The notes below the pieces were generated by a model. The model saw only the letters and a program-made list of their open reading frames with translations. It ran no database searches and was not told the origin of the DNA. DNA of 46,166 nt from Pseudomonadota bacterium (GTDB lineage: Bacteria; Pseudomonadota; Alphaproteobacteria; SHVP01): positions 1-46,166 of the forward strand of contig JAQBYN010000024.1 of NCBI GenBank assembly GCA_027622715.1, in the 5' to 3' direction. The position numbers and the translations under genes are program-made. Shown here one piece after another: positions 24,345 to 45,941 of the stretch. Within the stretch, counting starts at the first letter, position 1, and every line of letters begins with the position of its first letter.

Positions 24345-25556
24345 TCAGGCGCGTATCAGATCGGGCATCCCGCTGGCCGCGCGGCTACCTGGAAAAACGC
24401 GATCCTCCAAAATGCCTTCGGCGATGCCCAGATGATCACGCAGGACGCCTTTCAGGACCGCACGAATATCAGTGGCCGGGGCCAGGTCGCGTCCTTCGAA
24501 CAGGTGCCGGGTGTCGATGCCCGGCCACGGTGTCGCGATGCGCCCGCCGTTGACGGCACCGCCAAGCAGCAATGCGACGCTGCCGGTACCGTGGTCGGTG
24601 CCCTTAGTCCCGTTGATCGCCGCGGTGCGGCCAAACTCGGTCACAACAACGATGACTGAATCGCGCCATGCCGCGCCCAGACCGTCTTGCAACTGGATCA
24701 GGCCACCGGCGAGGTTGCCGAGCTGGACGGCCAGCGCGCCGGCAGACCCGCCCTGAAAAGCGTGGGTGTCCCAGCCGTCAGTGTCGAGCGCGGCGACCCG
24801 CGGCCCATTGCGGTCGGCCAGTAGTTTTCCGGCCGCGCCGAACGCTTCCCTGAAATAAGCGCCGCCGCCCTGGCCCCGGCCCATGTTGGCCGAATCGCCC
24901 AGCACGTCGGCCTTCATCGCCTTGGACTGCATGGCTTCTGCCAGGGTCTTTGCCAACACCGGGTCCTGCCGGTACATGGTTTCCAGCCGGGCAAGAAAAT
25001 CCGCACCGGCAACCGGCAGTACCTGCGGCGCGTAGGTGGTGTAACGCGCGTCGCCGCGCATGATCAGCGGCACATTCGCGCCGACCGCCAAGCCGATCGG
25101 GACGTCGCCATTGGTCATCGCCGCAATCGCGCGATTCATCCAACCGTCGGCGGTGCTATGCGGCAGGGCGGTACCGTTCTCCAGAACGTTCTGGGCATCG
25201 AAGTGGGAGCGGTCGCGGTAGGGGATGCCAACCGCGTGGGCCACCGCCAACTCACCGCGGCCATACAGCGCATGAAGCGGCGCCAGGGCGGGATGGAGGC
25301 CGAATTGACCGTCGAGGTCGATGACCCCGCCTGTTTCGCCGGGGCCGGGCAGTGCAAGGTCGCCGCGTTGACGCCGGTAGCGCGCCTCGCCGTACGGTGC
25401 GACCGCCGCCAGGCCGTCCATGCCGCCGCGCAGCAGCACAATGACCAGACGCCTGTCGGTCGGCACGGCGCCGAATGCGATGCGCAAACCGGCCGGCGAT
25501 AGCGTCAGCGCAGCGGCCGCCGTCATCCGTTGCAGTGTTTGTCGCCGGGTCAGCAT
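24345..25556 (-). CDS. DUF1501 family protein (exported, sulfatase-like fold)
   Basis: A 403-residue protein. The N-terminus MLTRRQTLQRMTAAAALTLSPAGLRIAFG is a Tat-like signal with paired Arg. The body follows the DUF1501 pattern: RRLVIVLLRGGMDGLAAVAPYGEARY, GVIDLDGQFGLHPALAPLHALYGRGELAVAHAVGIPYRDRSHFDAQNVLENG, ALDTDGWDTH, and VVTEFGRTAAINGTKGTDHGTGSVALLLGG. The late His and Asp residues resemble an alkaline-phosphatase-superfamily metal site. Family function is not established. It is 2 bases downstream of a DUF1800 gene; this pairing recurs in many bacteria. Confidence 0.92.
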   Translation of the reverse strand: MLTRRQTLQRMTAAAALTLSPAGLRIAFGAVPTDRRLVIVLLRGGMDGLAAVAPYGEARYRRQRGDLALPGPGETGGVIDLDGQFGLHPALAPLHALYGRGELAVAHAVGIPYRDRSHFDAQNVLENGTALPHSTADGWMNRAIAAMTNGDVPIGLAVGANVPLIMRGDARYTTYAPQVLPVAGADFLARLETMYRQDPVLAKTLAEAMQSKAMKADVLGDSANMGRGQGGGAYFREAFGAAGKLLADRNGPRVAALDTDGWDTHAFQGGSAGALAVQLGNLAGGLIQLQDGLGAAWRDSVIVVVTEFGRTAAINGTKGTDHGTGSVALLLGGAVNGGRIATPWPGIDTRHLFEGRDLAPATDIRAVLKGVLRDHLGIAEGILEDRVFPGSRAASGMPDLIRA

Positions 25557-25558
25557 GG

Positions 25559-26890
25559 CTATTTCCTCTGAAACTCGGGGCTAGCGAAAACCAGCGCCAC
25601 CGCTTCGGTGCGGCTTTGCGCCTGGGCAACTGTGATCCTGGTATCGTCGGAAAGGACCGGCCCGATGATCGCCTCGGCCCAGTCAACTGGATTGGGCATC
25701 GGTGCGCGGTTGCTGACGGCGCGCAGCCATTCGATGCGGGTCATCAAGGCTTCAGGGCCCAACCAGTCGGCGGTGCGGTCGGACCAACCGGCCGGCGAGG
25801 GCGCAGTGAATGGAAACTGGTTCAATAGCCCAAGAGCGCCGACCACCGCTTTGTCGGGCAGTGTGGAGATATTCAGCGCCCGCAGACTTGAAATGATCAG
25901 ATCGTTGGGCGTCTTGAACTTGGACAAGGGGTCGTTCCACGGTTCTGGCGAGTCGATCAGCGCCAGCGACAGCGCGCGGAGATCGCCGCCGGTGTCGTTG
26001 TACACGCGCGCCAATCGCGCGATCGTGCCCGCGGTGGGTTCGTCGGCGAGGAAGTGCCGCGCGAGTTTTGTCGCGACGAAGCGCGCAGTGGCAGGGTGGG
26101 TGGCGAGGTCGCGCAACGCGTCTTCACCTTCGCGCACGCCGCCACGGCGATAGGTCTTGCCCAGCAGAGTCTTGCCGCCTGGTTCGTGGCCAACCGATCG
26201 AAACAGGAACTTCCCCGGGGTGCCATCCTGGTTGTTTTGTGGCCGGCTCACGCCCCACCCGGTAATCAGTTCGGCCAGCGCGATCACGTCGTCCTGGGTG
26301 TAGCCGCTGCCGACGCCCAGTGTGTGCAGCTCGAGAATCTCTCGCGCGAGATTCTCGTTCAGGCCGACGTCCCGCTGTTGGCCAGCCGCGCTGTTCGGGC
26401 CAAATGAAAATTGGTTGTCCAGGTACATCAACATGACCGGGTGCTGCGACACAGCGACCAGCAGGTCGGCGAACGTGCCAAAGATATTCGGCCGGATCGC
26501 CTCGCGCTCAAAGGCGCCGACAGCGGCCACGATTTGCGGCCGCTTGGCCGACACGGTGAAATGGTTGCTCCAGAAATGCACCATGCGTTCGCGAAACGGC
26601 ACATCGCTGGCGACCGCCGCAACCGTGCGGCGCCCGACCTCGTGAGTCAGAATGGGTCGGGCTACATCTTTGAGATATGCGCCGAACCCTTGGGCGCTGG
26701 ACTGTTGGCGGATCGTCTCGGCCAGCAGCGGTGCCGACCCGTCGAGGTCACCCAATTCACTCGGCACGGTCAAGTCGCCGACCTGAGCCCGCAACCAACC
26801 CACGGGGTCGCGCCCGATCGTCTCCAGGTCGCCGGGACGGGGCCCGTAGCCAAACCGGGTCGCCGCGACATAGGCCTGCTCGGTCGCCAT
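25559..26890 (-). CDS. DUF1800 family protein
   Basis: A 443-residue protein of the DUF1800 family. It has the diagnostic opening AATRFGYGPRPGDLETI, RMVHFWSNHFTVS, HPVMLMYLDNQFSFGPNSAAG, LNENLAREILELHTLGVGSGYTQDDVIALAELITGWGV and ATKLARHFLADEPTAGTIARL, in order. No clear signal peptide is seen, unlike its DUF1501 partner. The two genes are adjacent and cotranscribed. The family is uncharacterised, and nothing else in the sequence suggests a role beyond a secreted or envelope complex. Confidence 0.92.
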   Translation of the reverse strand: MATEQAYVAATRFGYGPRPGDLETIGRDPVGWLRAQVGDLTVPSELGDLDGSAPLLAETIRQQSSAQGFGAYLKDVARPILTHEVGRRTVAAVASDVPFRERMVHFWSNHFTVSAKRPQIVAAVGAFEREAIRPNIFGTFADLLVAVSQHPVMLMYLDNQFSFGPNSAAGQQRDVGLNENLAREILELHTLGVGSGYTQDDVIALAELITGWGVSRPQNNQDGTPGKFLFRSVGHEPGGKTLLGKTYRRGGVREGEDALRDLATHPATARFVATKLARHFLADEPTAGTIARLARVYNDTGGDLRALSLALIDSPEPWNDPLSKFKTPNDLIISSLRALNISTLPDKAVVGALGLLNQFPFTAPSPAGWSDRTADWLGPEALMTRIEWLRAVSNRAPMPNPVDWAEAIIGPVLSDDTRITVAQAQSRTEAVALVFASPEFQRK

Positions 26891-26967: not shown

Positions 26968-29307
26968 CTATGCCGCCCTGGCTGCCGCCATCGTGCGCCA
27001 CACCCGCTCGGGCGTGGCCGGCATGTCGATATGCTCGACGCCGAGCGGGGCAAGGGCATCGAGAATCGCGTTCACCACGGCCGGCAGGGCGCCCAGCGTG
27101 CCAGCCTCCCCGGCGCCCTTGGCGCCGAGCGGATTGGTCTGGCACAGGATCTCGTTGTAGCGAAAATCGATGAAGGGCAGATCGTCGGCGCGCGGCATGC
27201 AGTAATCCATGAACGATCCCGACAGCAGCTGGCCGCTTTCGTCGTCATAAACCGCATGCTCGAACAGCGCCTGCCCCATCCCTTGCGCGATGCCGCCGTG
27301 AACTTGACCCGCGACCAGCATCGGGTTGATGACCTTGCCGAAATCGTCGACCACGGTGTAACGGGTGATCGCAACCTGTCCGGTCTCATCGTCTATCTCG
27401 ACCTCGCAGATATGCGCCCCGTTGGGAAAGGTCGGCACCGGGTAGGTAAAGTCGCCGGTCTCATCCAAGCCCGCCGTCACGCCATCGGGCAGGTTGGCTT
27501 TGTCCTTGGCCGCTTTGGCGACGTCCATAATCGAGATCGTCCTATCGGTGCCCGCAATCGTGAACGTGCCGTCCTCGAACTCAAGATCGGATTCAGCGGC
27601 CTCCAGCATATGCGCCGCCACCTTGCGCGCCTTCTGCAAAACCTTGTCTGCCGTCGTCAGGACTGCGTTGCCGCCGATCACCAGGGATCGCGATCCCGCG
27701 GTCCCGCCGCCCTGCGGCAACGCGCGATTGTCGCCCTGGCGAAAATCGATCTTGTCGAATTCAATGCCCAAGGCCTCGTTGACGAACTGGGCAAATGTCG
27801 TGGGATGGCCTTGGCCGGTGCCCAGCGTGCCCATGTCGAGCAAGACCCGCCCGTCGTCTTTAAACGTGATCTTCGCGGTCTCGGTCGGATCGGCGCCCGT
27901 TGCCTCGATGTAGGTGGCGACGCCAAACCCCAACAACTTGCCGCGCGGTGCGGCCGCCGCCCGGCGCGCCGCGACTTCGCTCTGCCCCGCATCGCTCAGT
28001 GCATTGCGCAGGTTGCGCGCGAAGTCGCCCGAATCGTAACTCAAGCCCATCGCCGTGGTGTAGGGCATGTCCTCGGGCCGGATGTAATTGCGGTTGCGCA
28101 AGTCCTCGGCCGACACCTTCAATTCGCGCGCCGCCTTATCGACCAGCCGCTCAATCACGTATGCGGCTTCGGGCCGCCCCGCGCCGCGATAGGCGTCGGT
28201 AACCACAGTGTTGGTGAAAACGCCCGTGACCTGCGCTAACGCCGCAGGGATTCTATAAAGCCCGGGCAACATCCGGCTGTACAGCAGTGTCGGCACCAAC
28301 GGACCAACTTGATTGGCGTAGGCACCAAGGCTCGCCACCGTCTTGACCCGCAAACCTAAGAAGTCGCCGTCCTTGGTCATCGCCAATTCAGCGTGGGTCA
28401 CATGATCGCGCCCGTGCGCGTCGCTGACGAATGATTCGCTGCGGTCGCCATACCACTTCACTGGTCGGGCCAACGCCTTCGCCGCCCATAGCACCAAAAT
28501 TTGCTCGGCGTAGATATAGCCCTTCATGCCGAACCCGCCGCCAACATCATCGGTCAGCACGTGCATGTGTTTTTCGTCGGTTCCCATAATCCCAGCGGCG
28601 ACTTGGCCCAGCTGGAACACGTTCTGGCAGTTGGTGTGCAAGGTGTAGGTGCCGCTAGCCGCATCGTATGCACCAGTCGCGCCGCGCGGCTCCATCGAGG
28701 CGCAAATGACGCGGTTGTTGATCACGTCGATTGTCGTCACATGGTCGGCATTGGCGAAGGCGGCGTCGGTCGCCGCGGCATCGCCCATGGCCCATTCGAA
28801 GCAGGTGTTTTGTGGCGCGTCGGCCCAGATTTGCGTTACGCCCGGGTTTGCCGCGACCGCGGTATCGGTCAACGAGGGCAGTATGTCGTAATCGATGTTC
28901 ACGAGATCCGCGGCGTCATGCGCTTGCTGCAGGCTCTCCGCGACGACCAGCACCACTGGATCGCCGACGTGTTTGACCGCCGCCGTCGCCAGCACCGGCC
29001 GCGGTGGGACATAAGCGGGCGACCCATCGGCCCGCTTGAGTTGCAGGACGCCGACAGTCGGGCTCGGCAGATGCCCGATCCCAGCTTTTTCGGCATCCGT
29101 CCCGATGAACACCCCGATCACCCCCGGGGCAGCCTGGGCGGCGGCCACATCGATCGCACCCAACCGGGCATGGGCGTGGGGCGAGCGGACAACGACGGCA
29201 TAGGCTTGTCCCTCGAATTCGAGGTCGTCGTGAAAGCGGCCTTGGCCAACCAACAGCCGGTCGTCCTCGACCCGCCGTACGCTCTTACCGAACCCGTACT
29301 CCGACAT
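26968..29307 (-). CDS. Xanthine dehydrogenase/CoxL family molybdenum hydroxylase large subunit (paralog A)
   Basis: A 779-residue molybdopterin-binding large subunit. The N-terminal substrate-channel domain opens SVRRVEDDRLLVGQGRF; GGGFGMKG near residue 250 is the first cofactor motif; DAYRGAGRPEAAY is the form-II version of the CoxL active-site loop, not the AYxCSFR of true CO dehydrogenase; the catalytic Glu lies in GAKGAGEAGTLGA near the C-terminus. ATG 29307 has AGGGAG seven bases upstream, and a longer frame to 29337 is less likely. This is the last of three tandem paralogs. No CoxM (FAD) or CoxS (2Fe-2S) gene is adjacent, so partner subunits must come from elsewhere. Substrate is unknown. 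Confidence 0.93.
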   Translation of the reverse strand: MSEYGFGKSVRRVEDDRLLVGQGRFHDDLEFEGQAYAVVVRSPHAHARLGAIDVAAAQAAPGVIGVFIGTDAEKAGIGHLPSPTVGVLQLKRADGSPAYVPPRPVLATAAVKHVGDPVVLVVAESLQQAHDAADLVNIDYDILPSLTDTAVAANPGVTQIWADAPQNTCFEWAMGDAAATDAAFANADHVTTIDVINNRVICASMEPRGATGAYDAASGTYTLHTNCQNVFQLGQVAAGIMGTDEKHMHVLTDDVGGGFGMKGYIYAEQILVLWAAKALARPVKWYGDRSESFVSDAHGRDHVTHAELAMTKDGDFLGLRVKTVASLGAYANQVGPLVPTLLYSRMLPGLYRIPAALAQVTGVFTNTVVTDAYRGAGRPEAAYVIERLVDKAARELKVSAEDLRNRNYIRPEDMPYTTAMGLSYDSGDFARNLRNALSDAGQSEVAARRAAAAPRGKLLGFGVATYIEATGADPTETAKITFKDDGRVLLDMGTLGTGQGHPTTFAQFVNEALGIEFDKIDFRQGDNRALPQGGGTAGSRSLVIGGNAVLTTADKVLQKARKVAAHMLEAAESDLEFEDGTFTIAGTDRTISIMDVAKAAKDKANLPDGVTAGLDETGDFTYPVPTFPNGAHICEVEIDDETGQVAITRYTVVDDFGKVINPMLVAGQVHGGIAQGMGQALFEHAVYDDESGQLLSGSFMDYCMPRADDLPFIDFRYNEILCQTNPLGAKGAGEAGTLGALPAVVNAILDALAPLGVEHIDMPATPERVWRTMAAARAA

Positions 29308-29408
29308 CGCAGCGCTCCCTTTGCCGGTCACATTCACGCGGACCGTTTTTCTTGATCAGGGAGGATAGCGTGGTCGCCGCGCTGCGTCAGCCGAGGGACG
29401 TCGAAATT

Positions 29409-31745
29409 CTACGCAGCTTTAGCGTCGTGAATCGCGCGCCACACCCGCTGTGGGGTCGCCGGCATTTCGATGTGTGTGACCCCGGTGGGGGCCAGCGCAT
29501 CCAAGACGGCGTTGATGACGGCCCCCGTCGCGCCGGTGGTGCCGGCCTCGCCGGCGCCTTTCAGGCCCAACGAGTTGGTGGTGCACGGCACGACGTTCAT
29601 ATCGATCTTGATCGACGGCAGGTTCAGCGCGCGCGGCATGCAGTAATCCATGAACGAGCCGGTGAGAAGTTGCCCCGATTCGGCGTCATAGATCGCATCC
29701 TCGTATAGCGCCTGGCCGATGCCTTGGACGATGCCGCCGTGAATTTGGCCGTGCACGATCATCGGGTTGAGCACGTGGCCGAAGTCGTCGACCACCGTGT
29801 AGTTCTCAATCACAATATCACCTGTATCGGGATCGACCTCGACCTCGACAATGTGACACCCGTTCGGAAAGCTCGACGCCTCGGATTTGTAGGTCGCATC
29901 TTCTTTGAGCCCCGGGGCCATGCCGTCGGGCAGGTTGGCCGGATCGTCCGCTGCCTTGGCCACGTCGCCCAGGCTAAGCGTGCGGTCGGTGCCGGCGATG
30001 GTGAAGGTGCCACCGTCGAATTCGATATCGGCCTCAGCCGCTTCCAGCATGTGCGACGCAATCTTGCGCGCCTTGTCGATCACTTTCTCGACGCCGGCCA
30101 GCACCGCGCCGCCCCCGCTGTAGCCCGAGCGCGATCCACCAGCGCCGCCGCCTTGCGCCAAAATATCGGAATCGCCCTGGTGAACCGTGATGCGGTCATA
30201 GTCCGTCCCCAGTTTGTCGGCGACGATTTGCGCGAAGGTCGTGGCGTGGGCCTGTCCCTGGGTTAGCGATCCCGAATAGGCCATGACCGATCCGTCGGCG
30301 TTCACCTCGATCCGCGCGGTTTCGGGGACGCCGCCCGCGGTCGCTTCGATATAGACCGACATGCCGATGCCCCGCAGCCTGCCGCGTTTGGCCGCTTCGG
30401 CCCGCCGCACCTCGATGCCATCCCAGTCGGCGGCCTTCAGACAGTCGTCCAGGTTTTTGACAAAGTCACCCGAATCGTAGGTCATCCCGGTTGGCCCGCT
30501 ATAGGGCATCTGCGCGGCCGCGATCAGGTTGCGGCGCCGGATTTCGACCGGGCTCAGCTTCATCGCGTGCGCCGCCAGATCGACCAGCCGCTCGATGACA
30601 TAGCTCGCTTCTGGGCGGCCCGCGCCGCGATAAGCGTCGGTAAAGACTTTGTTGGTAATGCTGACCTCGACCTCGGCATAAACCAGTGGCACGCGGTAGA
30701 CCCCGGGCAGCATGCGCACGCTGCCGGCCGACAAAATCATCGGTCCAAAATTGGACGCATAGGCCCCCATCGAGCCCACCGAATGCACCCGTACCGCCAA
30801 GAAATGCCCGTCGCTATCCAGCGCCAGTTCTGCGTCGACCACCAGGTCGCGCCCCTGGGTATCGCTCAGGAACGCCTCGCTGCGGTCCGAATACCATTTC
30901 ACCGCGCGACCCAAGCGTTGTGCGGCGAGCATCACCAACGGTTGCTCCGGATAGGGCATGCCCTTCATCCCGAACGAGCCGCCGACTTCGGGGCAGGTCA
31001 CATGAATGCGGTTTTCCTCGACGCCCAACATCTGCGCGCAAATCGCCCGATTGCGGTACACGCTTTGGGTATTGGTGTGCAGCGTATAGCGGCCGCTCGC
31101 CGCATCGTACTCGCCGATGCAGCCGCGCGGTTCCATCGATGCGGCGATGATGCGCTGGTTGACGTGTTTGAAACGTACCGTCTTATGCGCCGCCGTAAAT
31201 GCGGCCTCGCTCGCCGCCGCATCGCCCATGGTGAACAAAAAGGCGTCGTTGCCGTCGGTCTCGTCCGCATAGATGACCGGCGCGCCCGGCGCCAGCGCCG
31301 CGGCCGTATCGGTCACGCTCGGCAAAACCTCGTAGTCGACAAGAACGGCTTCGGCGGCGTCTTTGGCCTGGGTGCGGGTCTCGGCGATGACGAATGCAAC
31401 GGGGTCGCCGACATGGCGCACATGCGTCCGCACCAGGACATGATGGGTCGGAAAGAACCGTTTCGATCCGTTGCGCCGTTTGAACTCGAACATGGCATCG
31501 ACGGCGCAGGGCAGGGGGCCCACGTCTTCAACGTCGGCGCCGGTGTAAATAGCGAGGACGCCCGGCATCGCCAGGGCGCTACCGGTCTCAATCGACAAGA
31601 CCTTGGCGTTGGCGTGAGGTGAACGCAGGACATACGCGTGGGCTTGGCCGGCAACGTTGATGTCGTCGATATAGTGGCCTTTGCCGATCAACAGCGTGTC
31701 GTCTTCTTTGCGTTTGACCGACTGACCGATCCCGAATTCGCCCAT
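29409..31745 (-). CDS. Xanthine dehydrogenase/CoxL family molybdenum hydroxylase large subunit (paralog B)
   Basis: A 778-residue second copy. It opens MGEFGIGQSVKRKEDDTLLIGKGHYIDD and has GGSFGMKGMPYPEQ, TDAYRGAGRPEASYVIERLVD (form-II loop), the cofactor-binding GQAHATTFAQIVADKLGTDYDRITVHQGDSD segment and catalytic GLKGAGEAGTTGAT. It matches its two neighbours along the full length, with differences around the substrate channel. GAGG is nine bases before ATG 31745. About 100 bases separate it from paralog A and 72 from paralog C, so all three probably form one transcript or were duplicated as complete gene units. Confidence 0.93.
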   Translation of the reverse strand: MGEFGIGQSVKRKEDDTLLIGKGHYIDDINVAGQAHAYVLRSPHANAKVLSIETGSALAMPGVLAIYTGADVEDVGPLPCAVDAMFEFKRRNGSKRFFPTHHVLVRTHVRHVGDPVAFVIAETRTQAKDAAEAVLVDYEVLPSVTDTAAALAPGAPVIYADETDGNDAFLFTMGDAAASEAAFTAAHKTVRFKHVNQRIIAASMEPRGCIGEYDAASGRYTLHTNTQSVYRNRAICAQMLGVEENRIHVTCPEVGGSFGMKGMPYPEQPLVMLAAQRLGRAVKWYSDRSEAFLSDTQGRDLVVDAELALDSDGHFLAVRVHSVGSMGAYASNFGPMILSAGSVRMLPGVYRVPLVYAEVEVSITNKVFTDAYRGAGRPEASYVIERLVDLAAHAMKLSPVEIRRRNLIAAAQMPYSGPTGMTYDSGDFVKNLDDCLKAADWDGIEVRRAEAAKRGRLRGIGMSVYIEATAGGVPETARIEVNADGSVMAYSGSLTQGQAHATTFAQIVADKLGTDYDRITVHQGDSDILAQGGGAGGSRSGYSGGGAVLAGVEKVIDKARKIASHMLEAAEADIEFDGGTFTIAGTDRTLSLGDVAKAADDPANLPDGMAPGLKEDATYKSEASSFPNGCHIVEVEVDPDTGDIVIENYTVVDDFGHVLNPMIVHGQIHGGIVQGIGQALYEDAIYDAESGQLLTGSFMDYCMPRALNLPSIKIDMNVVPCTTNSLGLKGAGEAGTTGATGAVINAVLDALAPTGVTHIEMPATPQRVWRAIHDAKAA

Positions 31746-31817
31746 CGTCGTATTCCTCTATCGTTGACAACGATGTGGCCGCCATGGGGCGGCCACATCC
31801 GTCGCAAAGTAGTCGCG

Positions 31818-34142
31818 TTAGGCGGCTTTGGCGCCGTCCATCAAGCGCCACAGGCGTTCCGGCGTGGCCGGCATTTCGACATGTCGGATGCCCAAATCCT
31901 TGAGCGCATCCACCAGCGCGTTGGTCACGCAGCCCAGTGCACCAACGGTCCCGGCTTCACCGGCCCCCTTGATGCCCATCGGGTTGGTTTTGCACAGCAC
32001 CTCGTTGAACCCGATCTTGAACGACGGGAAGTTGTCGGCGCGCGGCATCGCGTAATCCATGTATGACCCCGTCACCAGCTGGCCCGAGTCGGCATCGTAG
32101 ATGCAATGCTCGAGCAGCACTTGGCCGACGCCCTGGACAATGCCGCCGTGAACTTGGCCCGCGACGAGCAGCGGGTTGATGACCTTGCCGAAGTCGTCGA
32201 TGACTACATAGTTCAAGATCGTCACGTTGCCGGTGTCGCGGTCGACCTCCAATTCGCAGATGTGGCACCCGTTGGGGTAGGTGCCGGAATTGACGTCCGA
32301 ACCGGCGCGGGTGTCGAGCCCGGCGTCGACGCCGTCGGGCAGATTGGCCTGGTCCTTGGCTGCCGTTGCAACCTCGCCAATGGTCAACCGTCGGTCGGTC
32401 CCGACAATGGAGAACACACCGTCACCGAACTCAATGTCGGACTCGGCGGCTTCCAGCATATGCGCGGCAATCTTCTTGCCCTTTTCGATGATCTGCTCGG
32501 AGGCATTCTTGAGCGCTGCGGCGCCCAGCATCATCGACTTAGACCCGCCTGTGCCGCCACCGGTTTTCACTCGGTCGGTATCGCCTTGCACAACCGTGAT
32601 TTTGTCGAATGGCAGGCCCAGCATTTCCTCCAACACCTGCGAATACGATGTCGCGTGGCCCTGGCCGTTGGTCAGCGTGCCGATCAGCACCGTGACGCTG
32701 CCGTCGTCCTCGAAGATCAGTTCGACGTTTTCGTTGGGCCCACCCGCTGCGGCCTCGACATAGCACGCCATGCCGATGCCGCGCAGCTTGCCGGCCTTTG
32801 CCGATCCGGCGCGGCGCGATTCGAAGCCGTTCCAATCGGCCATCTTCATCGCGGCGTCCATATTGGCCGCGAACTCACCCGAATCGTAGTTCGGCCCCAG
32901 CGGCGCCGCGAACGGCAGCTTGCTCGAGGGGATTAGGTTGCGCCGGCGGATCTCGGCCGGGTCGATGCCCATATCGTACCCTGCGCTATCGACCAATCGT
33001 TCGATGATGTGCGATGCCTCAGGCCGACCGGCGCCGCGATAGGCATCGATCGACACCGTATTGGTGAACACACCGATCACGTTCACATAGGCCGCCGGAA
33101 TGTCGTACAGCCCGGTCAGCAAGCCGGTGCCCGCCATCGTCGCCACCATCGGCGCGAAGTTCGACAAATACGCACCCATGGCCGAAATATTCTCGACCTT
33201 TATCGCGAGGAACTTGCCGTCTTTGTCCATCGCCAGTTCGGCATGGGTGACATGATCGCGTCCCTGCGTGTCGGAAACGAATGCTTCGGTGCGCTCGCTG
33301 GTCCATTTGACGGGACGACCGACTTTCTTAGCGACCCACGGCATCAGGCACTGTTCAGGATAGACGAACACTTTCATGCCGAACCCGCCACCGACATCGG
33401 GCGATATCACCCGCACTTGGTCGGCCTCTGCGCCTAACGCGCCGGAGACAATATCGCGCATCATGTGAACGTGCTGGCAGGGCGTGTGCAGCGTATAGCG
33501 TTTGGTCTTGGTGTCGTATTGGCCCAGCGCGCCGCGCGGCTCCATCGAGGCCACGACCACGCGGTTGTTGGTGAGGTCGATCTTGGTGATATGCGCTGCA
33601 CTGGCAAAGGCCGCATCGACCGCCGCGCGGTCGCCCTTCTCCCAATCGAAGACTCGGTTGCCGGGCGCGTCATCCCAGACCAGCGCCTTGCTCGTCAGCG
33701 CGCCCGCCGTATCGGTCACTGAGGGCAGGATGTCATAGTCGACCTCAACAAGATCGGCGGCGTCTTTGGCCTGCTTGGCGGTCTCGGCGACCACGACGGC
33801 GACCGCGTCACCGACGGTTCGCACGCGGTCAAGGGCCAACAAATCGTGTGGTGGTTGCGCCATCTTCGAACCATCGCGTGAGGTTAGAACGGCAAGGCAC
33901 GGGATGCCGCCGATTTTGTCAGCCTTCAGGTCGGCCGCCGTGAAAATGCCCAGAACTCCCGGCGCGGCCTTGGCCGCCGCCGAATCAATGCCGTTGATCT
34001 TGGCATGGGCATGCGGTGAGCGGACGAAATGGGCAAAGGCCTGCCCGTCGAACGTCAAATCGTCGAGATAGCGTCCGCCACCCGTCAGCAGCCGGTTGTC
34101 TTCTTTGCGACGGACCGCTTGGCCCACACCGAATTGACCCAT
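31818..34142 (-). CDS. Xanthine dehydrogenase/CoxL family molybdenum hydroxylase large subunit (paralog C)
   Basis: A 774-residue large subunit and first of the tandem set in transcription order. It opens MGQFGVGQAVRRKEDNRLLTGGGRYLDD and contains GGGFGMKVFVYPEQCL, IDAYRGAGRPEASHIIERLVD (form-II loop), NGQGHATSYSQVLEEMLGLPFDKITVVQGDTD and the catalytic GIKGAGEAGTVGALGCV. Most members of this family are cytoplasmic heterotrimers or heterodimers that hydroxylate aldehydes, purines or N-heterocycles. AAAGG precedes ATG 34142. A candidate promoter with a palindrome lies at 34196-34230. Confidence 0.93.
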   Translation of the reverse strand: MGQFGVGQAVRRKEDNRLLTGGGRYLDDLTFDGQAFAHFVRSPHAHAKINGIDSAAAKAAPGVLGIFTAADLKADKIGGIPCLAVLTSRDGSKMAQPPHDLLALDRVRTVGDAVAVVVAETAKQAKDAADLVEVDYDILPSVTDTAGALTSKALVWDDAPGNRVFDWEKGDRAAVDAAFASAAHITKIDLTNNRVVVASMEPRGALGQYDTKTKRYTLHTPCQHVHMMRDIVSGALGAEADQVRVISPDVGGGFGMKVFVYPEQCLMPWVAKKVGRPVKWTSERTEAFVSDTQGRDHVTHAELAMDKDGKFLAIKVENISAMGAYLSNFAPMVATMAGTGLLTGLYDIPAAYVNVIGVFTNTVSIDAYRGAGRPEASHIIERLVDSAGYDMGIDPAEIRRRNLIPSSKLPFAAPLGPNYDSGEFAANMDAAMKMADWNGFESRRAGSAKAGKLRGIGMACYVEAAAGGPNENVELIFEDDGSVTVLIGTLTNGQGHATSYSQVLEEMLGLPFDKITVVQGDTDRVKTGGGTGGSKSMMLGAAALKNASEQIIEKGKKIAAHMLEAAESDIEFGDGVFSIVGTDRRLTIGEVATAAKDQANLPDGVDAGLDTRAGSDVNSGTYPNGCHICELEVDRDTGNVTILNYVVIDDFGKVINPLLVAGQVHGGIVQGVGQVLLEHCIYDADSGQLVTGSYMDYAMPRADNFPSFKIGFNEVLCKTNPMGIKGAGEAGTVGALGCVTNALVDALKDLGIRHVEMPATPERLWRLMDGAKAA

Positions 34143-34268: not shown

Positions 34269-35324
34269 CTAGTCTGTCACTTTTGGGCGCCCAAAAATGA
34301 GCCGGTAGACCGCGGCGCCTGACAGCATCACGACCAAAACCCGCAAAAAATGCATGACCGTGACGAACGCGGTATCGGCCGAGAGCGCAAAGGCGATCAA
34401 GCTCATCTCGGCCAGGCCACCTGGGGCAATCGACAGAAACAGGATAAATCCGTCGAGCCCGGTCAGCCGCGCGAATATCATCGCAGTCATGACTGCCAAA
34501 GCGATCATCGACACCGCGGTAAGCACCGCGATCGCGATCGTGCGCGCCATCGATCTGGCGCTCATGCGGTCTGTGAACCGGCACCCGACACTGGTCCCGA
34601 CGACGACCAGCGCGATCGACACTAGCCAAACCGGTACCGTGGCGTTGGTGATGCCGGTGGCGTGAAGCGATGCGGAAAGTATCATCGGTCCGATCAGCGG
34701 CGCGGCGGGAAGGCGCAATCTGCTGCTCACGCCGTAGCCAATCACCGCGCAGGCGACAAGGAGCGCGATCTCCAGCGGCGTCGAGGCGATGTGGGCGCCG
34801 CTCTGCGGCGTGGTCGGTACGGCCAGATTCTCGACATAACGGAAATAGAACGAGATCAAGGTCACGACCAGAACAATCCGCACTCCATGATTGAGCGGCA
34901 CGATGCGGCCATCGCCGCCCATCGCCTCGCTGATCATGGTCATTTCCGTTAACCCGCCGGGGGTCGAAGAGAAATACGCGGTGGTCCGGTCGTAGCCGCC
35001 GACCTTTCGGTAAATCCAATAGGCGATGGTCATGGCGACCGCCATAAAACTGATTTGGATCAGCAGCGTGGCGCCGAACCGTCCTGCCTGCTGGACGAGT
35101 TCCGGCGTGAATGCGCTGCCCAGCAGGACGCCAATGACGGTGGCAAAGACCGCACGAAAACGGTTGGGTACGCGGACGGGCGCGCCGGCCAAGGCGGCAA
35201 CCATCACCGCGATCATGGAGCCCAGCATCCAAGCCAACGGCAGCGACAAGAAATAGAAAACCGCGCCCCCGACCGCGCCGATGGCAAGCGCGACGATCAA
35301 TCCGCGCGGGACGGCAGTGTTCAT
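34269..35324 (-). CDS. AbrB-family (duplicated AbrB transporter-like) membrane protein
   Basis: A 351-residue integral membrane protein with about ten hydrophobic segments. Two similar halves each carry a SLPLAWMLGSMIA or LPAAPLIGPMILSASLH type segment (near residues 27 and 205) and a glycine-rich PGGLTEMTMISEAMGGD / APGGLAEMSLIAFALSAD segment, which marks the internal duplication of the family. Sometimes labelled ammonia monooxygenase regulator AbrB; the actual substrate is not established. ATG 35324 overlaps the aspartoacylase-family stop by 4 bases. It is the last gene of the NAD kinase operon. Confidence 0.88.
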   Translation of the reverse strand: MNTAVPRGLIVALAIGAVGGAVFYFLSLPLAWMLGSMIAVMVAALAGAPVRVPNRFRAVFATVIGVLLGSAFTPELVQQAGRFGATLLIQISFMAVAMTIAYWIYRKVGGYDRTTAYFSSTPGGLTEMTMISEAMGGDGRIVPLNHGVRIVLVVTLISFYFRYVENLAVPTTPQSGAHIASTPLEIALLVACAVIGYGVSSRLRLPAAPLIGPMILSASLHATGITNATVPVWLVSIALVVVGTSVGCRFTDRMSARSMARTIAIAVLTAVSMIALAVMTAMIFARLTGLDGFILFLSIAPGGLAEMSLIAFALSADTAFVTVMHFLRVLVVMLSGAAVYRLIFGRPKVTD

Positions 35325-36283
35325 CGGTTGACGTAGCGGCCGAATCGAACGGCCGTCTGCCCGCGCTTGATCCGCCGTGTCGGCATGATCAACACGCAGC
35401 TGTCATAGGGCGTGACGATGGTCCGGGCGCCGTCGCGCGCAATCGCTGTCCCAGCCTGGGCAATCATTTCGAGGCCCTGGTACGCATCGAGAAATTGGAA
35501 ATCGGCGCTGCCGACCGTCACCGCATCGGTCACCTCAACGGCGCGTTGTCCGTCCGGTGCCGGCCCCAGCCGGGATGCTAGCCAGTCCCGATCGACGGCA
35601 TCGAACGCGCCAAGAAAACGCAACGCAGACTCGATCGCCACATCGCGGCTGGCGGCCATCCAATGCTGCCCGCATTCCACGAGGACCGACGTATGGTGCT
35701 GGTCCTCGTCGGCGAAATATCCGTAATCGCGCAGCCGTACACCTTCGGTATGGCCGGCATCGATGACGATATGCTGCGGCACACCCATAGCCTGACACAG
35801 GGCAAGACACTTGCGCGTCGTCCCGGCCAACGCTAACGGCGGGCTCGGCGTCTGCATGGAATGCAGGTCGAGCAGATGGTCGACGGTATCGATCAACGCG
35901 CGTAATTCCTTGGCCCGCGCCAACTCGCTTGACCGTGCCGCGCCGTCCAACACACTGGACGACCACAAACGATTGAAGTCTTCGTCCACAAAACGCGACG
36001 CCCCTGGATTGGCCGCGTCGAACGACTCATAGGCCGTGACGTTTGCAAAACTAAGGCTTAGTCGGCCCCGCGTCGGCGTCACGCCGTTGCGGAATAGGTA
36101 ATCAAGCGCGTGGGCGCCGCAAACCTCGTTGCCGTGGGTCAGCGCGTTGATCAGCAGATGCGGCCCCGCGATCCCGCTATCCAATGTCGTGACATAGGGT
36201 ATCGCCGTGTTTCCGGTATACGCCGAGATATCGACCGGCAGCAGGTCCAGCGGCCGGTCAGCGGGCGGCGCCGGGTCGCTCAC
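35321..36283 (-). CDS. Aspartoacylase/succinylglutamate desuccinylase family zinc hydrolase
   Basis: A 320-residue M14-fold metallo-amidohydrolase. Zinc ligands appear as [14 protein letters not shown] (His and Glu, about residues 48-53) and a later His in LLDLHSM. DFNRLW holds the substrate-carboxylate Arg typical of the family, and VECGQHW carries the proton-shuttle Glu. The C-terminal beta domain follows from about residue 230. It probably cleaves an N-acyl amino acid, with specificity unknown. The start is GTG 36283, forming a GTGA overlap with the NAD kinase stop, and its own stop overlaps the AbrB-family start. Confidence 0.88.
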
Positions 36284-37047
36284 GGAATAAATTGTTCGTT
36301 CAGAATGCGTTCTTCGAGGTTGTGCTCAGGGTCGAACAGCATACGCATGCGGCGCGCGCGGTCCTCGCGAACTTCAACCCACGAAACGTCGCGCACTTCG
36401 GTGTGATCCGCGACCGCACTCACCGGGCGCTTCTCCGGTTCTAAAACCTCAAAACGAACAACGGCGCGCTGCGGCAATAGCGCGCCGCGCCAACGCCGCG
36501 GTCGAAACGCACTGATCGGTGTCAGCGCCATAACATCGGCACCGATTGGAATGATTGGCCCATGCGCCGACAAATTGTAGGCAGTGCTGCCCGCCGGGGT
36601 GGCCAATAGGATGCCATCGCAGATCAGCTCGGGAATGCGCACGATGCCGTCCACCGAAATGCGTAGTTTTGCTGCTTGCCGGGTTTCGCGCAGCAGCGAG
36701 ACTTCGTTGATGGCGAGCGCTCTCTTCCGCCGACCCTTGCGCATCGCAATCATTTCAAGCGGACGTAGTGAAACTTCCTCGGCTAGAGCGACTCTCTCCC
36801 GCAGTTTGTCTTCCCGGTACTCGTTCATCAGGAAGCCAACGGTCCCCTTGTTCATGCCGAAAATCGGCACGTCGCGCTCCATGTAGCGATGGAGGGTTTC
36901 GAGCACGAACCCATCGCCGCCCAACGCCACGATGACGTCGCCCTTGCTCGGCGGTACGTGCTTGTAGCGCCGCTTCAAGCGCGCAAGACCGTTTTGCGCC
37001 TCTTTCGAGCGGCTCGCGACGAAGCTTAGGGTCCTGAGTTCCGGCAT
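36280..37047 (-). CDS. nadK: NAD kinase
   Basis: Makes NADP from NAD and ATP in the cytoplasm. The 255-residue product has the GGDG motif at residues 43-46 ([17 protein letters not shown]), [14 protein letters not shown], and the NAD-binding [27 protein letters not shown] 37047 gives the usual alphaproteobacterial length and a start of [12 protein letters not shown]; an open frame to 37179 adds a non-conserved stretch. First gene of a three-gene operon with 4-bp overlaps; an essential enzyme in front of two metabolic genes of uncertain role. Confidence 0.94.
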
Positions 37048-37181
37048 GGGGCGGGGCGTCCGGCTGAAAGCGGCGGGAGACTGAGTATAGCGCAAGGGCA
37101 GGGCGGTGCCAGCCAGGGCAACAGCGTTGCGACCCGGGTGTGTCTCGCGCATCATGTCGGCCCGGTTGGAGATTTTCATCG

Positions 37182-37674: not shown

Positions 37675-38664
37675 TCAGCCGCCGGTGACGCTCATATGCC
37701 GCTCGACTGCGGGCGCGGTGTGGCGTCGGTCGATGAAAAAGTCATGTCCCTTGGGCTTGCGCGTGATCGCTTCATCGATGGCGGCGTCCAGCGCGTCGTC
37801 ACTGTCGCCGGCCCGCAGCGCGGTGCGCAGGTCCGCCGAATCGCCCTGACCCAAGCACATATACAACGTCCCCGTGCAGGTCAGCCGCACGCGGTTGCAC
37901 GATTCGCAAAAGTTGTGGGTCAGCGGCGTGATGAAGCCAATCCGGCCATCTGTTTCTTTTACCCGTACGTACCGCGCCGGCCCGCCGGTCTGGTAGTCAA
38001 TATCGTCGAGGTGCCACCGTTTGTTGAGGTCGGCGCGCGCCACCGAAAGCGGCAAATAGTCCGCCGAGCGGTCACCGTCTATGTCACCCATCGGCATCGT
38101 CTCGATAAACGTCAGGTCGAACCCTTGATCGCCGCACCAGGCGATAAGCCGGTCGAACTCGCCGTCGTTGATCTTGTTGAGCGCCACCGTGTTGATCTTA
38201 ATCGCTAGGCCCGCGCGTTTGGCTGCGGCGATCCCGCGCATCACTTGGTCGAAGTCACCCCAGCGGGTAATGCGCTTGAATACGTCGGGGTCGAGCGAAT
38301 CAAGCGATATGTTGACCCGCCGCACGCCCGCGGCATACAGCGCATCGGCGTAGCGGTCGAGCTGGCTACCGTTGGTCGTTAGCGTCAAATCTTCGAGCGC
38401 ACCAGTGGCCAAATGCCGACCCAAGCTTTGAAACAACGTCATGATGTCTTTGCGCACCAATGGCTCGCCACCGGTCAGTCGCAACTTATTGACGCCCTTG
38501 CGTACGAACGCCGAACACAGCCGGTCAAGTTCCTCCAGCGACAGCACGTCGCGCTTGGGCAGGAACGTCATGTGCTCAGACATGCAATACACGCAACGAA
38601 AATCGCACCGGTCCGTCACTGACACACGCAGGTAGGTAATTTCGCGGCCGAAGGGGTCGATCAT
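37675..38664 (-). CDS. moaA: GTP 3',8-cyclase MoaA (molybdenum cofactor step 1)
   Basis: Radical-SAM enzyme that rearranges GTP in the first step of molybdopterin synthesis. The N-terminal cluster motif C-x3-C-x2-C is at residues 20, 24 and 27 (RCDFRCVYC); the second cluster is [15 protein letters not shown]; the protein ends in the Gly-Gly tail that is essential in MoaA. Length 329 is normal. ATG 38664 starts the canonical [13 protein letters not shown]; a longer frame is not conserved. It diverges from fdhD across a ModE-type palindrome. No moaC, moaE or moeA gene is nearby. Confidence 0.96.
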
Positions 38665-38685
38665 GGATTGCTTTCCGTTGCGGCG

Positions 38686-38721
38686 TTGAGCGTTATATAT
38701 GGCAGTATATAACCCTCTCAA
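38686..38721. promoter_or_regulatory. Overlapping divergent promoters for moaA and fdhD
   Basis: Plus strand (fdhD): TTGAGC (38686-38691), 16 bases, TATAAC (38708-38713). Minus strand (moaA): TTGAGA (38721-38716), 16 bases, TATATA (38699-38694). The two -10 elements are formed by the opposite arms of the palindrome at 38692-38713, so anything bound there would be expected to stop both. Confidence 0.55.
38692..38713. promoter_or_regulatory. ModE-type palindrome (molybdate-response operator)
   Basis: GTTATATA (38692-38699), TGGCAG, TATATAAC (38706-38713): perfect 8-bp arms with a 6-base centre. This matches the published ModE core of TATATA-N6-TATATA with flanking AC/GT. It sits centrally between moaA and fdhD and over their predicted -10 elements. 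A ModE-like HTH protein is encoded at 40246 in the fdhD operon. Confidence 0.8.
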
Positions 38722-38766
38722 GGGCGGGCGTGTGGTTTTCTGCGCGCCCCGCGAAGATGTGACGCG

Positions 38767-39630
38767 ATGCGCGAATTTGAGGTAGGCCCTAACCCGCACG
38801 ACCCCCGGCTTACCCGGCGGGTGACGGGGCGTGACGAAACCGGAGCCGAGGTTGAAACCGCGGTCACCGTTGAGCGTCCCTTGACGGTCTATCTCAACGG
38901 CCAGGAAATCGTCACCATGATGACGATCGGCGACCATCCGAAGTGGCTCGCGGTCGGCTATTTGTTGAACCAGAACATGCTGCGGGCCGACGACCGGATC
39001 GACGCAATCGACTACGACGAGGAACTAGAGCTTGTCGTCGTGCGCACCCAGCGCCCGACCGACTACGAAGCCAAGCTAAAGAAGAAGACCCTGACCTCCG
39101 GCTGCGCCCAGGGCACGGCGTTCGGCGATCTGATGGAAACCTTCGAAGATGTGACGCTGGCGCCCGACGCCGTTCTGCGCACCGCATGGCTCGCGATGCT
39201 GCTCAAGAAAATCAACACCCAACCCAGCCTGTATTTAGAGGCGGGTGCGATCCACGGCTGCGTCTTGGCGCGCGAACAAACCCCGTTGCTCTATCTCGAA
39301 GATGTCGGGCGCCACAACGCGGTCGACAAGATCATGGGCTACATGTTTCTCAATAGCGTCACGCCGGAAGACAAGATTTTCTACACGACCGGTCGGCTGA
39401 CTTCAGAAATGGTCATCAAGTGCGTCAATATGCGCATTCCGATTCTGGTCTCACGGTCGGGCTTTACGGCCTGGGGCGTGGATTTGGCGCGCCAAGCGAA
39501 CTTAACCTTGGTCGGCCGCGCTCGCGGTCGTCGCTTCGTCGTGCTGGCCGGGCATGAACGCATGATCTACGACGCGCCTACGGGCGCCGAAGAAGAGCCC
39601 GAATCCGACCGGCGCAAGGGCGGTCGGTGA
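38767..39630 (+). CDS. fdhD: Formate dehydrogenase accessory sulfurtransferase FdhD
   Basis: Carries sulfur from a cysteine desulfurase to the molybdenum cofactor, needed for an active formate dehydrogenase. The 287-residue product has [10 protein letters not shown]-like sequence ([18 protein letters not shown]), the YLLNQNML segment, FTTGRL-like [15 protein letters not shown] and [12 protein letters not shown]. The sulfur-carrying Cys is in [11 protein letters not shown], but the second Cys of the enterobacterial C-x2-C is Gly here. Some formate dehydrogenase clusters name this gene fdsC. It leads an operon with mobA and the ModE-like gene and precedes the convergent formate dehydrogenase genes. 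Confidence 0.94.
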
Positions 39631-40253
39631 AGGCGCATCGTCACGTAGTCGGCGTTTTGCTGGCTGGCGGGCAGGCGCGGCGCATGGGCGGCGGCGATAA
39701 ATGTTTGCAACGACTGGGCGGCGAAACGCTGTTGGCGCGCGCCATCGCGCGTGCCCGCCCGCAAGTTGATTCGCTCATTCTCAACGCCAACGGCGATCCC
39801 GCGCGATTTGGCGCTTATGGCATTCCGGTGGTACCCGACGTGATCGACGGGTTCGCGGGCCCGCTGGCGGGCATCTTGACCGCGATGGAGTGGGCGGCGC
39901 AAAACGCGACCGACCATGAAACCGTGGTCTCGTTCCCGACCGACGCCCCGTTCTTCCCAGACGATCTTGTGGATACCATGCTCGAGGCCCGTCGCCAGGC
40001 CGGGGCACTCTTGGCGTGCGCGGCGTCGCGCGGTCGCACCCATCCGGTTTTCGGCGTGTGGCCGGTTAATCTGCGCGCCGACCTGCGGCACGCGCTCGAA
40101 CAAGGCGAACGAAAGATCGACCGGTGGACCGATCAGTATCCCATCGTGACCGTTGAGTTTTCCGGCGTCGACGTCGATCCGTTCTTCAACGCCAACACGC
40201 TCGAAGACTTGGCCCAGGCCGAACGCTTGTTGCAGGGGCCGACGCGTGAGTAA
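39627..40253 (+). CDS. mobA: Molybdenum cofactor guanylyltransferase MobA
   Basis: Adds GMP to molybdopterin to give the MGD cofactor used by formate dehydrogenase. The 208-residue nucleotidyltransferase has the signature GVLLAGGQARRMGGGDKCLQRLGG, then VPDVIDGFAGPLAGILTAM and VVSFPTDAPFFPDDLV. The start is GTG 39627, overlapping the fdhD stop (GTGA). The CoxL-type enzymes in this window would instead need the MCD form made by MocA, which is not found here. Confidence 0.95.
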   Translation: MKAHRHVVGVLLAGGQARRMGGGDKCLQRLGGETLLARAIARARPQVDSLILNANGDPARFGAYGIPVVPDVIDGFAGPLAGILTAMEWAAQNATDHETVVSFPTDAPFFPDDLVDTMLEARRQAGALLACAASRGRTHPVFGVWPVNLRADLRHALEQGERKIDRWTDQYPIVTVEFSGVDVDPFFNANTLEDLAQAERLLQGPTRE

Positions 40254-40611
40254 GCGGTCTCATGCGGCAGCGCCGCAGCTGCGGGTGCTGCTCGGGTCGG
40301 CAACCGCAATGGGGCCGGGCAAGGCAGCGCTCATCGACACAATCGCGCGCACCGGCTCGATCTCGGCTGCGGCCCGCGACATGGGTATGTCCTATCGGCG
40401 CGCTTGGGATTTAGTGGAGACCATGAACCAATGTTTTCGTCACGCGCTGGTCGAAACCGCGACCGGCGGACGAGGCGGCGGTGGCGCGCAGGTTACTGAC
40501 TTTGGTCGGGAGGTGGTGCGCCGCTACCGGGTCATGGAGGGCAAGGCCGCGCGCAGTGTCGCGGCCGAAATGAGCGCGCTCGAAAAGATGATGCGCAAAC
40601 CGGCGAGCTAG
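40246..40611 (+). CDS. ModE N-terminal-type winged-helix regulator lacking the Mop domain
   Basis: A 121-residue DNA-binding protein matching only the N-terminal half of ModE: LLGSATAMGPGKAALIDTIARTGSISAAARDMGMSYRRAWDLVETMNQCF (winged helix), LVETATGGRGGGGAQVTDFGREVVRRYRVME (wing and dimer helix). E. coli ModE goes on to two Mop/TOBE molybdate-binding domains; here the protein stops after the dimer helix. The start is GTG 40246, overlapping mobA by 8 bases; a frame open from 40153 runs inside mobA. It is the obvious candidate to bind the palindrome at 38692. How it would sense molybdate is unclear. Confidence 0.88.
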   Translation: MSKRSHAAAPQLRVLLGSATAMGPGKAALIDTIARTGSISAAARDMGMSYRRAWDLVETMNQCFRHALVETATGGRGGGGAQVTDFGREVVRRYRVMEGKAARSVAAEMSALEKMMRKPAS

Positions 40612-40651
40612 AGAAAGGTCGAACGAAAGCCGCAGTAGCTGGAGGTTCTTC

Positions 40652-40855
40652 TTAGAACCGGCGCATGCCGACGCGGCGCTCGTTTTCCTGAAACAGTTCC
40701 TCGACCGCGGCCAGGACATCCTGCCAAATACGTTGGCCGGCTGTATCACCCCGCCGCTCGAACCGACCAATGGCGTTGCGCGCCACCGAAGCAGCCTCGC
40801 CGCCATGAACATCGATCAGTTGGTCGGCAGTTGCGAACGTCAATTGATCGCCCAT
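40652..40855 (-). CDS. Small uncharacterised protein upstream-convergent to the FDH region
   Basis: A 67-residue soluble protein. The helix pair EAASVARNAIGRFERRGDTAGQRIWQDVLAAVEELF resembles a small alphaproteobacterial family of unknown role. GGGGAGGGT lies four bases before ATG 40855, a very strong ribosome site, which supports expression. It lies between the ModE-like gene (convergent) and the formate dehydrogenase alpha gene (same strand, 159 bases upstream). The position is that of a delta subunit (FdsD), but I see no similarity to FdsD and do not call it that. Confidence 0.68.
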   Translation of the reverse strand: MGDQLTFATADQLIDVHGGEAASVARNAIGRFERRGDTAGQRIWQDVLAAVEELFQENERRVGMRRF

Positions 40856-41014
40856 CGTGACCCTCCCCGGCCCAAATTAGTGGCGCTTAACGGGTCAAAA
40901 CTAGGCGCTTTGGGGCAACCCGCGCTGTGCGCGCCGTCACACTTTGAGGCGTATTAGAGGCTGTGGGGGGGCACAAATCCGGGGAAATCCCAATTCGCGG
41001 GGCCCTAGCTGAGG

Positions 41015-45426: not shown

Positions 45427-45605
45427 GCCAAATCGTCCTCGTCCAGCACCGTCAGGGTAATCACCTCGATATTGATCAGCTGTTTGCCGGCATGTTGAAA
45501 ATTGACGGTCACCCGCATGCCCACCGCCGACTGAACTTGGCCGATGCCCCAGTCGGGTCGGTCGGGATGTCTGACATAGGCGCCCGGTTCCAACAGTAGC
45601 GTCAC
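45423..45605 (-). CDS. DUF3553 small protein
   Basis: A 60-residue protein with the DUF3553 pattern LEPGAYVRHPDRPDWGIGQVQSAVGMRVTVNFQHAGKQLIN, a small beta-barrel-like fold also seen in CarD/Mfd-type interaction modules. The start is GTG 45605 with GGAAGTGGA close upstream. The stop overlaps the fused formate dehydrogenase gene by 4 bases, so it is the first gene of the operon. Function is unknown; the tight coupling to formate dehydrogenase is unusual. Confidence 0.85.
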   Translation of the reverse strand: MTLLLEPGAYVRHPDRPDWGIGQVQSAVGMRVTVNFQHAGKQLINIEVITLTVLDEDDLA

Positions 45606-45941
45606 AACGGTCCACTTCCGGCGTTCTTCATAGGTTATTCTAACAGACCAGGGATTGAATTAGGTCAATCGGGGAACGCCATGGACGACATCGACTTCAG
45701 TCCAATGACATTCAGGATGGAAGAGTGTCGCGGTGGCAGCACTATTTCTCTCGGCAAGGGCTTGCGCGAACTGTTCGAGCCAGCGTGTGGCTTGAGCGCT
45801 TACCGGTTCAACGTCCGTGGGTTCTTTCATCTCTTGGTCCAATCGCTGATTTTACGCTGTTATCTAGACGTCTCCTCAGACCCCGTTGTTATCGTGCGAC
45901 AACGCGCGCTAGGCTAACCCGCGCCACATTGGAGGTTTGCC
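45606..45941. other. 336-base gap with a gene remnant and divergent control regions
   Basis: No intact gene. It carries a short coding remnant (45660-45842 minus), a small GTTA-TTC-TAAC dyad at 45634-45644 in front of DUF3553, and the upstream region of the HD-domain gene that ends in GGAGG at 45930-45935. I find no convincing promoter for either gene. Confidence 0.5.
45660..45842 (-). pseudogene. Remnant of an NTF2-like domain at the head of a flavin-dependent oxidoreductase
   Basis: A 60-residue open frame. ATRWLEQFAQALAERNSAATATLFHPECHWTEVDVV matches the opening helix and first strand of the NTF2-like module that precedes some FAD-dependent monooxygenases (usually ...LFaddcHWRDLLAFTW). 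After HW the sequence loses the pattern and stops within 15 residues, and no continuation is found in other frames before the DUF3553 gene. I read it as the 5' end of a deleted gene; a chance similarity is possible. Confidence 0.45.

Follow-up and report, generated by a model that had tools for sequence, protein, structure and literature searches.

Four CoxL-type large subunits and one coxL-less cox operon in an alphaproteobacterial genome: a putative set of exchangeable catalytic subunits

The genes of molybdenum hydroxylases are assumed to come in complete sets for a large (L), a medium (M) and a small (S) subunit. The large subunit binds the molybdenum cofactor (Moco) and the substrate, and two [2Fe-2S] clusters in the small subunit carry the electrons to the FAD in the medium subunit, from where they reach an acceptor. 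In large subunits of the xanthine-oxidase family, the catalytic glutamate lies in a G-x-G-E motif. For carbon monoxide dehydrogenase (CODH), CoxG has been reported as a membrane or quinone link. Outside this family, many terminal oxygenases share one common ferredoxin/reductase in the Rieske oxygenase sets of sphingomonads. Form II CoxSLM complexes, expected to have the composition (LMS)2, are regarded as putative CO dehydrogenases or aldehyde-oxidase-like enzymes. In Rubrivivax gelatinosus, according to the accessible part of the description, L, S and M occur in one NBT-reducing complex, and a coxL mutant lacks this complex (PMC10434068). The form I enzyme carries the loop AYXCSFR, as given in the available part of a recent ocean survey (PMC13203968). 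Genomes with many COG1529/CoxL paralogs are described, in the accessible parts of the two reports, for SAR202 bacteria (PMC5395668) and sponge symbionts (PMC8941161), where they are thought to oxidise diverse organic compounds. The latter report, in the same part, also describes Poribacteria that express coxM and coxS without a CO-type large subunit (PMC8941161).

The window analysed here is an entire contig (C21, 46,166 bp) from a marine-type bacterium, whose genome assembly comprises 86 contigs with 3.15 Mb in total. Based on open reading frames, Pfam domains and motifs, it contains three CoxL-type Moco large subunits, L1 (31818..34142, 774 aa), L2 (29409..31745, 778 aa) and L3 (26968..29337, 789 aa from a GTG), all of them complete, co-directional and arranged in tandem on the minus strand (26968-34142). 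The likely start of L3 is an internal ATG at 29307, which aligns with the paralogs and gives 779 aa. The three proteins share 53-55% pairwise identity and match PF01315 (Ald_Xan_dh_C), PF02738 (MoCoBD_1) and PF20256 (MoCoBD_2) far above the Pfam cut-offs. The initial annotation of a triplet of full-length tandem CoxL paralogs, each with the motifs AYRGAGR and GAGEAG, was thereby confirmed. Its further claim that no CoxM or CoxS gene lies beside the array also held, with neither the FAD/CoxM profile (PF00941) nor the two-cluster Fe-S/CoxS profile (PF01799) matching anywhere in the 46 kb of the contig.

The spacing of the genes suggests that the array is part of one operon on the minus strand. 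Its probable first gene encodes an NAD kinase (PF01513/PF20143; 36280..37179), followed by an AstE/aspartoacylase-like deacylase (PF24827; 35321..36283), an AbrB-family membrane protein (PF05145; 34269..35324) directly upstream of L1, the three large subunits, a DUF1800 protein (25559..26890) and a DUF1501 protein (24345..25556). The gaps in this order are -4, -4, 126, 72, 101, 77 and 2 nt, the deacylase gene thus overlapping both of its neighbours by 4 nt. The array and its flanking genes are kept in both congeneric genomes searched (G001 and G002). L1-L2 are retained in G004, G005, G006 and G008, and L2-L3 in G007, where they lie at a contig end. The AbrB, AstE and NAD kinase genes (34269-37179) stay with the array across the family, except that AstE was not found in G005 and G008, and the downstream DUF1800-DUF1501 pair (24345-26890) is conserved in G001, G002, G006 and G007. 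Because the array and its flanks are conserved in both congeners and dN/dS values lie between 0.03 and 0.08, an array formed by chance can be excluded.

By sequence, L1-L3 and a fourth large subunit, L4 on contig C31, are of the form II CoxL type. L4 likewise has Ald_Xan_dh_C, MoCoBD_1 and MoCoBD_2 above cut-off together with AYRGAGR and GAGEAG, so that all four combine the three domains and the catalytic Glu of xanthine-oxidase family large subunits with the form II AYRGAGR loop, and all lack the Cys-containing form I loop AYXCSFR. The nearest solved chain to L1 is the CO dehydrogenase CoxL 8uem_A (E 1e-159), followed by quinoline 2-oxidoreductase and CODH. The form I Mo-CODH model TIGR02416 scored 527-549 against a cut-off of 991. 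In NCBIfam, L1-L4, M and S matched best to the alpha, beta and gamma subunits of a single enzyme, archaeal glyceraldehyde dehydrogenase (NF041018-NF041020), which speaks for their belonging together; the scores of 550-607 for L (cut-off 790), 229 for M (350) and 228 for S (290) stay below the cut-offs, so by this test the proteins are not members of these families. A known equivalog for L1-L4 was rejected, as no curated NCBIfam cut-off was reached.

A profile search of all contigs showed that the source genome, rated 100% complete, holds four L, one M and one S. The count of coxM and coxS proposed in the initial annotation therefore gave one of each for four large subunits, instead of a linked coxMS pair for every L. 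The sole FAD subunit (PF00941) adjoins the sole Fe-S subunit (PF01799) in the interior of contig C47, where they form part of an operon with the order coxG-S-M-D-E-F, followed by a MoeA/MobA-like fusion for Moco synthesis. The partner subunits of a form II enzyme are thus present (one S with eight Cys and one M with FAD), but the form II order coxS-coxL-coxM is not: coxL is missing, the large subunits lie on other contigs, and only 17 nt separate S and M at the site that coxL occupies in form II operons. The genes D, E, F and G are intact and were named by position and resemblance. The family search supports an NTP-transferase domain in the fusion; NCBIfam points to an XdhC-like F, an AAA-type D and a VWA-type E, all below cut-offs. 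Gene G, a putative coxG, had as its sole NCBIfam match a weak one, below cut-off, to another family, and the C-terminus of its product is a hydrophobic helix. Next to the L-less operon lies an antiporter operon of the Mrp/Mnh type for Na+/H+ (L011:12086-19463, C47; named from sequence), which is also found beside the cox operon in G001, G005, G018 and several of 80 CoxM loci; a functional link between the two is possible.

Neither the orphan large subunits nor the L-less operon appear to be decaying, since dN/dS values point to purifying selection. These were 0.03-0.08 for L1-L4 (source genome against two congeners, L4 against G001 only) and 0.03-0.10 for S, M, D, E, F and G (against two congeners), although the values are rough because synonymous sites are near saturation.

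The position of L was then compared across related operons. In G006, from the same family, and in the more distant G018, the same operon has its L directly between S and M. In G000, G001, G002 and G005 no L intervenes and the flanking genes are conserved; nor is there an L in the S-M stretch of G013 or G057. Eight CoxM proteins were used to scan the collection, which yielded 80 loci; after removal of L031, which matches G002, and addition of eight whole-genome loci, the survey comprised 87 loci, nine of which were set aside because no S was in reach. L lies between S and M in 55 of the 78 scored operons and is absent there in 23. Seven of these 23 have an L elsewhere nearby and 16 have none in view, the latter being weak evidence for some loci because they are short (L108 spans only 3.3 kb). 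On the S+M tree, 14 changes between L-containing and L-less states were counted, at least seven of them forced by well-supported branches, so the L-less operon form arose repeatedly. The tree itself does not distinguish gain from loss of L. Most changes are read as loss because S-L-M is the majority state and the form II order given in the available part of the ocean survey (PMC13203968). In L035, L075 and L080, from Betaproteobacteria/Burkholderiales, an S-M pair without an L in between has a divergently oriented L upstream.

An excess of L over M and S is common in relatives of the same genus or family. The L/M/S counts were 5/1/2, 4/1/1, 8/7/7, 6/1/2 and 4/1/1 in G001 to G005 and 6/3/3, 7/2/3, 3/1/1 and 0/1/1 in G006 to G009; the fifth L of G001 scored too low to be listed. 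The excess is not universal, since counts are near-equal in G003 and G009 (64% complete) has no L. Further counts covered 11 genomes from named loci without L between S and M and five hand-picked control genomes with L in place. The L:M ratios were 3:1, 8:2, 42:13, 32:11, 37:12, 37:15, 10:5, 7:7, 5:5, 6:4 and 6:4 in the former, of which G060 duplicates G008 (MarineAlpha2_Bin1), as their match places are identical, and 12:6, 14:7, 11:6, 5:3 and 14:9 in the latter. Genomes whose operon retains L thus show the excess as well, so it is not specific to L-less genomes.

The complete relative G062 (OX638326.1), a single 4.15-Mb chromosome, has 41 L genes (42 domain matches; one gene is interrupted by an in-frame stop and another is split), 13 M and 14 S. 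An L lies within 2.6 kb of 12 of the 13 M genes, and the one remaining M/S pair belongs to a coxG-S-M-D-E-F operon with the nearest L 20.8 kb away. The large subunits comprise 27 orphans with no M or S nearby on their own strand, 13 that are M-linked and one that is linked to S only.

If orphan large subunits use the S/M pair of the L-less operon, they should be of the same type as the usual L of that operon. This was assessed in a tree of 81 large subunits, comprising the 27 orphan and 13 linked L of G062, 23 orphans from window-type and other genomes, and 18 operonic L chosen by hand; the L trees are quick trees with the linked rows on long branches. A clade of 60 rows (SH-aLRT 99) unites all 18 operonic L, all 23 window-type orphans and 19 of the 27 G062 orphans, compared with none of the 13 linked L of G062 (Fisher p 1.9e-5). 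Within it, 40 rows, all orphans, form the sister group to the operonic L (support 97). L1 to L4 fall inside the 60-row clade, L4 grouping with G062 orphans, which indicates that the orphan type is older than the family of the source genome. The remaining eight G062 orphans fall outside, beside linked L, and may therefore use other M/S pairs. An earlier tree had given the same picture from 20 of the 27 orphans and eight of the 13 linked L. The catalytic-Glu motif is GCGEAG in 13 of the 18 operonic L, and window-type orphans mostly have GAGEAG, a Cys-to-Ala change beside the Glu.

Four large subunits against one copy of the electron-carrying parts suggest that a single electron-transfer unit is shared by many catalytic subunits. 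It is quite likely that L1 to L4 are exchangeable catalytic heads for which one L-less cox operon supplies the common parts. The two [2Fe-2S] clusters would come from CoxS and the FAD from CoxM, CoxD, CoxE and CoxF would mature the active site, and CoxG would, through its C-terminal hydrophobic helix, tether the enzyme to the membrane or pass electrons there, which fits the membrane or quinone link reported for CODH. Each L would bind Moco, oxidise a substrate of its own, probably not CO but an aldehyde or N-heterocycle, and dock in trans on the same S and M to hand on its electrons in a physical L-S-M complex. The suggestion in the initial annotation that the three L share one distant M/S pair is well supported at the genome level by the 4:1:1 count and the L-less operon, and L1-L3 may have the swappable substrate channels that it suggested. 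More broadly, we lean towards a lineage-wide modular platform in which a CoxG-S-M-D-E-F hub for electron transfer and maturation serves exchangeable L (four here, up to about 19-27 in the complete relative), the catabolic range grows by single L genes and not by entire operons, and an ancient orphan-only L clade has evolved to work in trans.

Other explanations have to be weighed against shared partners. The orphan L could work without CoxS and CoxM and deliver electrons to another acceptor, e.g. a ferredoxin or a Fer2-domain reductase, as the initial annotation had offered as an alternative. This idea gained no positive support and appears improbable: the genome does hold six Fer2 (PF00111) matches besides CoxS, of which one belongs to the window's formate dehydrogenase and another is below cut-off, but CoxS is its only two-cluster Fe-S (PF01799) protein. 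Moreover, the window L belong to a clade whose members include L with CoxS and CoxM as operon mates, and the L-less S/M/D/E/F/G operon would be partnerless, yet it is under purifying selection.

A single L could also be the true partner of S and M, having moved out of the operon, with the others non-catalytic or part of one mixed complex. Such moves are plausible elsewhere: G067 (7:7:7 L:M:S) and G068 (5:5:5) have an S-M pair without L in between, and their equal counts indicate that one L simply moved. For the source genome, this explanation is given slightly less credence still, as all four L keep AYRGAGR and GAGEAG and have dN/dS values of 0.03-0.08, and the sister relationship of the orphan and operonic clades implies that none of L1-L4 is the displaced operonic L itself. 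Least credible is an assembly artefact with further coxMS pairs in unassembled parts. The 86 contigs would allow for it, but completeness is 100%, a single M is also found in G001 (10 contigs, 99% complete) and G005 (20 contigs, 98% complete), and the complete chromosome of G062 shows the pattern more strongly.

The system resembles the form II CoxSLM of R. gelatinosus in its L, S and M families and the accessory genes D and E, and differs from it in that, in the part of that description available, one L lies between S and M, whereas here the operon is L-less and four L lie elsewhere (PMC10434068). Form I Mo-CODH (CoxMSL, e.g. of Oligotropha) has the fold, the Moco domains, the partner subunits and the maturation genes in common, but has the Cys loop AYXCSFR instead of AYRGAGR. 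For the expansions in SAR202 and sponge symbionts, the accessible parts of the reports propose neither a shared S/M pair nor an L-less cox operon (PMC5395668, PMC8941161), and a search of the open-licence PMC literature found no proposal of one S/M pair serving many CoxL, which is a weak negative. In our view, the components are ordinary and it is their arrangement, which recurs, that is unusual; we call the system a hub-and-spoke version of the form II CoxSLM hydroxylases. The Rieske oxygenase sets of sphingomonads work alike, with many catalytic units on one electron supply, but their proteins are unrelated.

The recent ocean survey of functional cox genes, in its available part, filters by intact operon (form I coxMSL; PMC13203968). 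If one S/M pair serves many L, orphan coxL-like genes in ocean genomes would be substrate modules and not debris, and the size of a cell's hydroxylase repertoire would be set by its L genes. Where a genome has only one M/S pair, a single deletion would then switch off the whole hydroxylase set, and the role of form II Cox would become directly testable.

Among the neighbours of the G062 orphans, of which 72 out of 181 ORFs were scanned, catabolic genes of mixed families prevail. The 25 of 99 families listed include alpha/beta hydrolases, short-chain dehydrogenases, UbiD-type decarboxylases, luciferase-like monooxygenases, TauD and enoyl-CoA hydratases, and this sample gave no single substrate hint. 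The active-site loops of these orphans vary, e.g. GPYRGAGR, ASYRGVGR and GTYRGPGR. In the source genome, the C31 region L012:3425-11696 holds L4, preceded by genes named from sequence as a TonB receptor, a binding protein, a permease, an ATPase and a TonB-like gene, an order kept in G001 (L014). Beside the L1-L3 array, the window contains a MoaA-like Moco-synthesis gene (37675..38937, minus strand, probable real start near 38749) and a MobA-like guanylyl/cytidylyltransferase (39627..40253, plus strand). The latter falls in a cluster rich in genes for molybdenum enzymes (38767-45615), which also encodes an FdhD-like protein and an FdhA/FdhB-type formate dehydrogenase, all named from sequence.
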